This document shows positions 35,858 to 38,955 of a DNA stretch of 64,000 nucleotides, one piece after another. Location of the stretch: contig QEVG01000009.1 in assembly GCA_003576905.1 (NCBI GenBank), positions 62,001-126,000 of the forward strand, given 5' to 3'. Position 1 is the stretch's first letter; every line of letters begins with the position of its first letter. The notes under the pieces are model-generated. The model was not told the origin of the DNA. It ran no database searches and saw nothing but the letters and a program-made list of their open reading frames with translations. This stretch comes from Planctomycetota bacterium (lineage in GTDB: Bacteria; Planctomycetota; Phycisphaerae; UBA1845; UTPLA1). The position numbers and the translations under genes were made by a program.

Positions 35858-36853
35858 ATGAGCACGAAGTTTCGAGAATTGATCGACATTCCTGCCGTGC
35901 CCGAGGGCATTCCGGGCGCGCCCTTCGTGGCAGATTTACCGAAGGGCGAAGGATCCGATACGTCCGCGCGCGCCGACCTGGTGATCCGGGGTGATACCGC
36001 GATCGGCGTTGAGTTATCGAGTCCGCTCAGCGTGCTCATCGACGGAAATCTCTTGCCGGGCAGCGTACATGCGGGAACAGATGTGCATGCGCACGGCGGC
36101 ATCTTGGGCCTGGGCCGGGCAGAAGTCGTCGCCGGGCGCGATGTTTCGGCCTTATCGGCCAAAAATGCTGTAATTCGAGCCGGCCGGGATGTAAACATTG
36201 CGTCGCGCATCGAGGGGTGCGAAGTCCTCGCGGGATTCGCCCTCGACGCCTGTTCCGCGGAGGTCGTGGGATGCCGCGTCCGGTCGGCGTTCTTCGTCAG
36301 TGCGTGTTCGCTTGGCGACGACCGCGGCACGCCGACCTGGATCGCCATCGGAACACCGGAATTGAACCGCTGCGCGTTGGAGCCGCTCGATGAGGAACTC
36401 CGAAACGTGCGCAGAGATGCCGCGCTGTTGGCGCGGGCGGTCGAATCGCTCGCGGCCGGGGCGAAATATCTGAACGCAAATCAAATGCGCAAGGCGCGAT
36501 CCCTTGAAGAAAGTCTGCGTCGGTTGCGCGGCCAATCTGTCACACTTCAGCGCCGGCGCGTGATGCTCGCGAATGACCACGAATCGTGCGTCTGCCTTCG
36601 AGTCACCCGGAAAATTCACTCCGGCGTAACCGTGACGGTGTTCGGGCGGACGCACCACTTTTCGAATGCCGTCTTCGGCCCCGGCTGGATTGGACTTCGG
36701 CGGGTTACCGGTTCGGTCGAACTGGTGTACCTGGACGAGAATACGGGTCGGGAGATCACGCTGGAGGCGGTTGCCGCGACGGCGGATATGTCCTTTCTGT
36801 CGGAAGCGCCGGGCAAAGGGCCACCCGGCGGCCGGCGGACCTGCGGTCATTGA
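35858..36853 (+). CDS. FapA-like (DUF342) beta-helix protein
   Basis: A 331-aa protein with the FapA/DUF342 plan. A short N-terminal region leads to a beta-helix built of polar, Gly/Val-rich turns (about residues 30-150: SPLSVLIDGNLLPGSVHAGTD, VVAGRDVSALSAKNAVIRAGRDVNIASRIEGC). A basic, Leu-rich coiled-coil stretch follows (about 190-240: RNVRRDAALLARAVESLAAG through RLRGQSVTLQRRR), and a beta-sandwich-like end. FapA-type proteins are cytoplasmic scaffolds in polymer assembly or localisation. The ATG at 35858 follows AGGGGA. The next gene, a PilZ-receiver protein, starts 39 bases after the stop, which points to joint expression. Confidence 0.75.
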   Translation: MSTKFRELIDIPAVPEGIPGAPFVADLPKGEGSDTSARADLVIRGDTAIGVELSSPLSVLIDGNLLPGSVHAGTDVHAHGGILGLGRAEVVAGRDVSALSAKNAVIRAGRDVNIASRIEGCEVLAGFALDACSAEVVGCRVRSAFFVSACSLGDDRGTPTWIAIGTPELNRCALEPLDEELRNVRRDAALLARAVESLAAGAKYLNANQMRKARSLEESLRRLRGQSVTLQRRRVMLANDHESCVCLRVTRKIHSGVTVTVFGRTHHFSNAVFGPGWIGLRRVTGSVELVYLDENTGREITLEAVAATADMSFLSEAPGKGPPGGRRTCGH

Positions 36854-36891
36854 AACGGGTTAACAAGGGCCTTGGAAACGAGGGTCGTCCA

Positions 36892-37971
36892 TTGCAGCCG
36901 AATCGTGGGCCGAAATTCGAAGCACTGAACGTCCGCATCAACGGCGCGGCAGCCAAGCTCCTCCTGGACAAATTCGATCAGACGCCGGGCGATGATTCCG
37001 CTGTGCAGAAGCGCGTTGAGGAGCGGTACCGGTTTCGCCGACCCTGCCTCGTGAAGTTTGTTCAGCCCGGCGGCACGACCGTTACGCTCAAGGCGCCGAC
37101 GCGCGACCTGTCGCGCGGGGGGCTTGCGTTTCTGCATCACAGCTTCGTGCATGCTGGCACGGTTTGTCAGATCCTGCTCGCGTCCTCCGATAAGAAGGTA
37201 ATTACTACCGAGGGAGTCGTGGTGCGGTGTGAGTATCTCGAGGCGGGCATTCACTCGGTGAGCGTCAGGTTCACATGCCCAATCGATGTCTCATCCATAT
37301 GCGACAGCGCGCGGACGCACCGCGTCCTGCTGGTCGATGACGATCCGCAGATGCGTACCCTGGTTCGCTTTCTTACCCGCGATCAGAGTATTGAGTTGGT
37401 CGAAGCTTCTGACGGCCAGTCCGCCCTCGACGCGGCCGCCTCGCGTCTGTTCGATATCATCCTCATGGATGTGGAAATGCCCGTGCTCAATGGCCTGGAC
37501 GCGGTAAAGAAACTTCGAGAATCGGGTTACACGGGCTGTATCGTCGCGCTGACGTCGATGAATGCCGAAGGTGATCGGGAGAGGCTCCTCGCCCAGGGAT
37601 TCGACCAATACCTCGCCAAGCCCATTGACAAGGACGCGCTGCGAAAAGTCTTTGCTGAGTTGCAGGCCGAGCCGGAGCTGTCGTCTCTTGCCGAAATGGA
37701 CGGCATGCAAAGTCTCATTTCGCAATTTGTCGACGAATTGGCCGCCATCAGCCGGGAGATTCAGAAGGCCCTTGCCGGCGGCGACATTCCGGGATTGGGC
37801 CGACTGAGCCGCACACTGAAGGGCAAGGCGGGGAGCTTCGGCTTCGCGCGAATCTCCGAGGCGGCGATGGCGGTTGAGACGAAGACCTCAGCCGAAGCAG
37901 ATGCCCAGGATCTGGGTAAGAGCGTTCACGAATTGCTGCGGCTGTGCCGCAGAGCGCGCAAGCCGTCATAG
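36892..37971 (+). CDS. PilZ-receiver-Hpt protein with Arg in place of the Hpt histidine
   Basis: A 359-aa signalling protein. A PilZ domain, the c-di-GMP sensor, covers about residues 40-130: RYRFRR (RxxxR) and DLSRGG (DxSxxG) are both intact. A CheY-type receiver follows (about 143-260): acidic pair D150-D151, phosphoacceptor D193 in LMDVEMPVLNGLDAV, and K243 in YLAKPID. A C-terminal Hpt-like helical domain begins near residue 270. The phosphotransfer site HxLKG reads R307-T-L-K-G, codon CGC, so histidine is replaced by arginine and the Hpt part cannot pass phosphate in the usual way. I start at TTG 36892, seven bases after AGGG; a TTG at 36850 overlaps the previous stop. Confidence 0.8.
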   Translation: MQPNRGPKFEALNVRINGAAAKLLLDKFDQTPGDDSAVQKRVEERYRFRRPCLVKFVQPGGTTVTLKAPTRDLSRGGLAFLHHSFVHAGTVCQILLASSDKKVITTEGVVVRCEYLEAGIHSVSVRFTCPIDVSSICDSARTHRVLLVDDDPQMRTLVRFLTRDQSIELVEASDGQSALDAAASRLFDIILMDVEMPVLNGLDAVKKLRESGYTGCIVALTSMNAEGDRERLLAQGFDQYLAKPIDKDALRKVFAELQAEPELSSLAEMDGMQSLISQFVDELAAISREIQKALAGGDIPGLGRLSRTLKGKAGSFGFARISEAAMAVETKTSAEADAQDLGKSVHELLRLCRRARKPS

Positions 37972-37985
37972 GCAAACGATCGGGT

Positions 37986-38016
37986 AAAAAAAGAACCGTG
38001 GCATGCGTGCCACGGT
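37986..38016 (-). terminator. Rho-independent terminator of the selenoprotein-candidate gene
   Basis: Reading leftward: a perfect 9-bp stem (ACCGTGGCA and TGCCACGGT, plus-strand 37995-38003 and 38008-38016) with a 4-base loop, then a T-rich run (37992-37986 with TTC before it). On the plus strand the same hairpin is not followed by T residues, so it serves the leftward gene ending at 38077. Confidence 0.8.
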
Positions 38017-38076
38017 CCATGTTCGTTCCTGCGCGGCGGGGTTGAACGATCCCGCGCGGCTTCGCCGTTGGCAGAC

Positions 38077-38955
38077 TCAGGAACCCGAACCTCCTTCGAG
38101 CCTTGCCAGCTCTTTTCGGGCCGTCGCCGCATGCTCGGATTCCGGGTACTTCTCCGTGACCTTTCGCAGGTACCGGATCGCGTCCTTTTCGGCGCCATTG
38201 TCCGCAAGGGTTCGCGCCATATCCAGCCACCGCCGGGCGTTCCGGTTCGCCTCTTCCGTGCGGATGGCGGTCATGATCTCCGGATCGGCCTTCATCTTTT
38301 TGATCTGGGCCTTGGCCGTCTTGGCACTCCTGGTGCCGGCGAACTCCTTGGCGACCTTCTCATAGCCCTGCATCGCGCGGGCGTATCGCTTCCGTTTCAG
38401 GTGGTTGTCGGCCTTCTTCAGCGCCGCCTTGGCCGCCTCGTCGCCCAGGACGCCTTTTCCCTTGGGAGGGCTCTTCTTCAACAGCTCATCGATCGCTTCT
38501 TCGGCTGCCCCAGGGTGTCCGATCCATGCGATTTTCCCGGCGGGATCAACCAGAAACGCGGTCGGGAACCCGTTCACGCCGTAGGCGTCGCGGGCACTCG
38601 TGGCGTCGCTGCCGACGATATAGGACATCTTGTTCTTGGTGACATAGGGGCCGACCTTCCCGGCCGGCTCATAGGAAAGAGCAACGAGAATGACACCCTT
38701 GTCCTGATACTTCTTTTGCATCTGAACCAGATGCGGAATGCCTGCGCGGCACGGCCCTCACCATGTCGCCCAGAATTCCACCATGACGATCTGACCCTTC
38801 AGATGCGCCGGGGTCAGACTCTTGATGCCCTTCGGGAGGTTGTACCAAGAGCCCGCGCTTACTGAGGGGGCCTTGTCGCCCACGCGCACACCGGCCAGTC
38901 CGGGCGCAGCGAGCGCAAGGACAAGGGCGGATGCGATTATTCCGCTTCGAGTCAT
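38077..38955 (-). CDS. Candidate selenoprotein: exported TlpA-like thioredoxin with a UxxC motif
   Basis: A 292-residue exported redox protein if TGA at 38760-38758 is read as selenocysteine (residue 66). A signal peptide (MTRSGIIASALVLALAAPGLAG) precedes the TlpA/AhpC-like domain: VGDKAPSVSAGSWYNL, VMVEFWATW-U66-G-P-C69-RAGIPHL, then VALSYEPAG and the cis-Pro region NGFPTAFLVDPAG. A TPR-like Lys/Ala-rich tail covers about residues 160-290. The frame continues for 226 codons after the TGA, and the TGA replaces precisely the first Cys of WCGPC. A perfect hairpin at 38718-38734 fits a SECIS. The ATG at 38955 has AGGAG upstream. A nonsense mutation of TGC is the alternative; selenocysteine genes are not in this window. 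Confidence 0.8.
38718..38734 (-). promoter_or_regulatory. SECIS-like hairpin 23 bases after the in-frame TGA
   Basis: GCATCTG-GTT-CAGATGC in mRNA sense: a perfect 7-bp stem whose apex reads GGTTC if the closing G-C opens. Bacterial SECIS elements lie inside the coding sequence just downstream of the UGA and carry GU in the apical loop. Here the GG of the apex follows the TGA by 29 bases. The hairpin encodes part of P-H-L-V-Q-M-Q. Confidence 0.65.

Follow-up and report, generated by a model that had tools for sequence, protein, structure and literature searches.

Bacterial SECIS (bSECIS) elements, as known from E. coli fdhF and the bSECISearch model, lie inside the coding sequence right after the UGA and form a short stem with a small loop in which G is followed by U (PMC13188914). 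According to the same source, the loop has 3–9 nt and the stem 4–16 bp, a G stands in the first two loop positions and is usually followed by G or U, the distance from the UGA to the apical loop is 16–37 nt, and the energy is at most −7.5 kcal/mol. UxxC thioredoxin-like selenoproteins have been found in marine metagenomes (Trx-like 1, COG0526; Prx-like 1, PF00578; PMC2398784), a cd02966 UxxC protein is listed in a 2026 inventory (PMC13188914), and selenoproteins of Planctomycetes have already been reported (PMC4807772).

We analysed a 64,000-nt stretch of planctomycete DNA (the window) and found on its minus strand a gene with an in-frame TGA that is followed by a hairpin (Table 1). Judged by comparative sequence evidence, this hairpin is very probably (roughly 95%) a bona fide bacterial SECIS element serving an exported TlpA/ResA-like oxidoreductase. 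It shares with the bSECIS consensus its place in the coding sequence, the short stem and the small loop with G then U; it differs from the E. coli element in its GUU triloop closed by a G-C pair. To our knowledge, it has no sequence similarity to the fdhF element beyond the GGU in the apex. A gene that looks broken is thereby predicted to encode a full selenoprotein, and the lineage, on which the literature searched holds little selenoprotein work, gains a clear and independently supported bSECIS.

Table 1. Features of the predicted selenoprotein locus in the window
Feature	Position	Strand	Remark
Coding sequence, 292 aa, TlpA/ResA-like thioredoxin-fold oxidoreductase, read through an in-frame TGA	38077..38955	−	
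In-frame TGA, predicted selenocysteine codon	38758..38760	−	residue 66; N-terminal Cys of WATWCGPC replaced, giving WATWUGPC
Spacer between Sec codon and SECIS stem	38735..38757	−	23 nt; possible 4-bp hairpin TGCC/GGCA
Bacterial SECIS element (very probable)	38718..38734	−	7-bp stem GCATCTG/CAGATGC, triloop GTT (apex GGTTC)
Intrinsic-terminator-like hairpin and T-run, downstream of the selenoprotein gene	37986..38018	−	stem 38018–37993, 11 bp, tail TTTTTTT

The reading frame runs from an ATG at 38955 to a TGA at 38077 and contains one in-frame TGA (38760–38758). Its product has an N-terminus that resembles a signal peptide (judged by eye), an AhpC-TSA/Redoxin-class thioredoxin domain (PF00578, 60 bits; PF08534, 56 bits) with the WxxxWCxxC site of TlpA/ResA-like proteins, and a C-terminal part of TPR-like helices. 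Top structural and sequence matches were ResA and DsbE-like proteins, which have the fold and the position of the active site in common with it; they carry CxxC, whereas the first of these cysteines is a predicted selenocysteine here. In the AlphaFold2 model (mean pLDDT 88.6), residue 66 immediately precedes the first long helix (67–86), a position which we take to be that of the attacking cysteine of TlpA/ResA proteins. The UGA aligned with the catalytic cysteine codon of homologues, and coding conservation extended to both sides of it. A terminator-like hairpin (38018–37986, minus strand, 11 bp, seven T) was also observed between this gene and a convergent response-regulator-like ORF (36586–37971, plus strand).

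The thioredoxin fold, the UxxC site and the many Cys homologues are features shared with the Trx-like, Prx-like and thiol-disulfide isomerase-like UxxC selenoproteins of the metagenomes. Unlike those, the window protein is predicted to be exported and has a C-terminal TPR-like helical domain, and its TGA orthologues have been confirmed in a single family of genomes only. Neither the window protein nor three other members reached the cut-off of any NCBIfam model. The ResA/TlpA-like selenoprotein model NF041054 (ResA-like WAxxUGC) gave a weak match of 41.9 bits against a cut-off of 300, and the window protein, with UGPC (a UxxC motif) in place of UGC, falls outside that model. Because UxxC selenoproteins have been published and no NCBIfam model reaches its cut-off here, the kind of protein is known, with an ordinary mechanism, and the subgroup is one that lacks a name in NCBIfam.

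Reading from the TGA on the minus strand, we found the 23-nt spacer GGGCCGTGCCGCGCAGGCATTCC, GCATCTG (38734–38728), GTT (38727–38725) and CAGATGC (38724–38718). The triloop begins 30 nt after the TGA; the same hairpin may also be described as a 6-bp stem with apex GGTTC, the first G of which lies at 29 nt. An earlier note on this DNA had described a perfect 7-bp stem 23 nt past the TGA with the GG of the apex at 29, without naming the strand, and this geometry proved exact. The codons for H-L-V-Q-M, over which the note had placed the hairpin, are indeed covered, together with the third base of the Pro codon and the first base of the Gln codon.

The hairpin lies within each of the bSECIS limits. 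Its loop of 3 nt and stem of 7 bp are of permitted size, the loop is GUU (apex GGUUC; GUU or GUC in orthologues), the spacing is 30 nt, and the energy of the perfect hairpin alone, −7.8 kcal/mol, narrowly passes the limit of −7.5. The local 43-nt RNA was more stable than dinucleotide shuffles (z −2.5; 3 of 200). When folded in context, the hairpin won with 48 and 90 nt after the UGA and lost to a longer-range fold with 66 nt. That longer-range fold, seen in a 68-nt segment of the window, did not appear at 66 nt in the six other family orthologues and was set aside. Nor do we assign a function to the spacer hairpin TGCC/GGCA of the consensus fold: the Cys codon dictates most of it, and Cys forms could largely fold it too. 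An Rfam search at a loose threshold returned chance matches only.

Seven TGA orthologues carried the hairpin in register: the window gene, L010, L011, L016, L018, L019 and L040. The six others were 36–65% identical to the window protein and had the stem at the identical 23-nt spacing. A single base separates TGA from the Cys codons TGC and TGT, and homologues with Cys abound, so that the TGA might be a sequencing or assembly error, or the stop of a pseudogene, in an ordinary Cys thioredoxin gene. However, independent genomes of this family have the TGA at the identical codon, the frames before and after it are intact, conservation downstream of it was strong, and a control pattern had no matches in the genomes listed. 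The orthologous sequences refute an error or pseudogene, to which we assign a negligible probability.

The stem changed in a coordinated manner among these orthologues. In L011 and L019 a U-A pair was replaced by C-G (CAT...ATG to CAC...GTG); in L016 the closing pair was C-G instead of G-C. The sole unpaired cell was the closing pair of L011, which shortened the stem to 6 bp and gave the loop GGUCG. In L149, a TGA homologue that belongs to a different family within the order, PHLVQMQ is replaced by PRLVQAY, yet ACGCCTG-GTT-CAGGCGT stands at the identical spacing. Both-sided changes affected two pairs within the orthologues and four of the seven pairs once the distant L149 was added; in this combined set 98.2% of cells were paired, against 14–43% in slid controls. 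The covariation that the earlier note had predicted for Sec forms was thus found in the orthologues and L149. The hairpin also persisted in the other TGA-containing orthologues, the exception in sequence being L017, with the different hairpin UUGGUGC-AGUU-GCACCAG and a loop 4 nt further on.

A stem in a coding region may also be a by-product of the codons for a conserved peptide, here PHLVQMQ; other signals would then direct the decoding of the TGA as Sec, or it would not be decoded. Keeping the amino acids fixed, we drew synonymous codons according to codon usage in the family (2000 joint draws). For the window sequence alone, 9% of draws gave an equal hairpin energy and 8.4% a perfect stem. 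The statement in the earlier note that codon needs could hardly explain the hairpin was therefore weak for the single sequence, but it held for the orthologue set. The seven orthologues had 48 of 49 Watson-Crick pairs (draws: mean 34.8, sd 2.6, maximum 42, n = 2000) and a summed hairpin energy of −58.0 (draws: mean −18.0, sd 7.0, minimum −43.8); the observed joint pairing was reached in 0 of 2000 draws, a joint probability that overstates independence because these seven in-register orthologues of the sampled family share ancestry. Synonymous sites were far diverged, and codon identity at shared residues was 72% in the hairpin codons versus 55% elsewhere. When the window gene was compared with its nearest orthologue, the longest stretch of identity, 34 nt, lay over the hairpin; the next longest was 17.

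Cys homologues provided a further comparison. A contig scan with the family alignment, whose peptide pattern ended in TWC, returned Cys forms only, and these were used as controls. Across 120 Cys homologues there were on average 3.23 pairs at the hairpin site versus a codon expectation of 3.25, and in the four Cys orthologues from the family of the window gene (L012, L014, L052 and L055) 71% of cells were paired, with breaks at differing places. A permitted hairpin of −7.5 or lower was found behind 32 of 47 Sec sites across the phylum and behind 2 of 120 Cys sites; the 15 Sec sites short of −7.5 come from a scan of perfect stems, in which bulged stems were left out. CTGGTTCAG occurred behind seven of the 47 Sec sites and none of the 120 Cys sites. 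The hairpin is retained where the Sec codon is present, whereas Cys forms have lost it, in line with the decay that the earlier note had predicted. Some Cys homologues with HLTEMQ-type peptides do reach six of seven pairs, which would suit a codon by-product; against it stand the matched choice of the His codon (CAC pairs with GTG, CAT with ATG), the seven pairs that L149 retains despite its different peptide, the joint draws and the Cys homologues at codon expectation. These results have already largely refuted a codon by-product, which we regard as very improbable.

The orthologue set comprised eight Sec forms, four Cys forms and one form with neither residue. The tree of these 13 family members, in which most inner branches are poorly supported, needed at least three Sec/Cys changes and, within that branch support, ruled out the proposition that Sec is monophyletic. 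The set amounts to a natural experiment: where the UGA is gone, the RNA stem is no longer maintained. In one genome (G012), two tandem paralogues of the window gene were observed: L055 is a Cys form (WTTWCGPC), and L015 carries neither residue (WGTSSRAS). No SelD match above the cut-off was found in this genome, which is 87% complete.

The genome of the window encodes the machinery for Sec decoding. We identified a tRNA-Sec with anticodon TCA, a selB with two winged-helix domains (Pfam), selA directly after it, and selD, so that tRNA-Sec, SelA, SelB and SelD are all present. The selD gene likewise contains a UGA that is read through (SCAGUAGK) and is followed by UCUCGCAG-GUU-CUGCGGGA with the loop at 33 nt. 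Its GUU triloop is closed by G-C, as in the window hairpin. A matching apex at a nearly equal distance in this unrelated gene is what recognition through one SelB predicts. A UGA-containing SelD was observed in 10 of the 11 family genomes searched (SCAGUAGK in the loci read; L193–L199, L190 and L191).

A ribosome may be slowed wherever a stem follows closely on a codon. The hairpin might accordingly slow or regulate translation, by pausing or partial termination, without recruiting SelB, an idea that draws on this general knowledge and not on a result of our analysis. Its conservation, however, tracked the UGA and was lacking in Cys forms, and the GUU triloop was common to the window gene and the unrelated selD; a purely regulatory stem is accordingly most improbable. 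Covariation in Sec forms, decay in Cys forms, the full Sec machinery and the GUU triloop of selD all support the selenocysteine insertion signal that the earlier note had proposed. For such a SECIS element, SelB with GTP and Sec-tRNA-Sec would bind the GUU apex at the moment when the A site of the ribosome is occupied by the UGA. The UGA would be read as selenocysteine with no termination, giving the WATWUGPC active site. The benefit, outside the cytoplasm, may be thiol-disulfide exchange that is faster or resists oxidation better.

The signature FWxxWUxPC, read with TGA, was found in 16 of 114 genomes from the order; in a sample of 392 genomes from across the phylum, 100 contained it. The reversed pattern, used as a control, had no matches among the genomes listed. 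Genomes often held several copies, up to five (L143–L189), which belonged to several TlpA/ResA-like subgroups with subgroup-specific SECIS hairpins. The window gene could conceivably be part of a large, unnamed radiation of exported UxxC TlpA/ResA-like selenoproteins, with subgroup SECIS types and repeated Sec/Cys exchange, and the phylum would then have an undescribed extracytoplasmic selenium redox system; we hold this view only tentatively. Given how widely the signature is spread, many such genes may be truncated at the UGA by automatic annotation.

At some Sec sites (L145, L147, L148, L163, L169, L171, L175 and L185), no strong hairpin with a perfect stem lay within the allowed range. The peptide PHEREMV or PHEKEMV recurs in several of these, and their SECIS may be bulged or of a different type. 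A second Sec subgroup, TlpA-like with PHERSLV, carried the recurrent SECIS CACGAGC-GGUC-GCUCGUG (L160, L164, L166–L168, L172, L181, L186 and L187).
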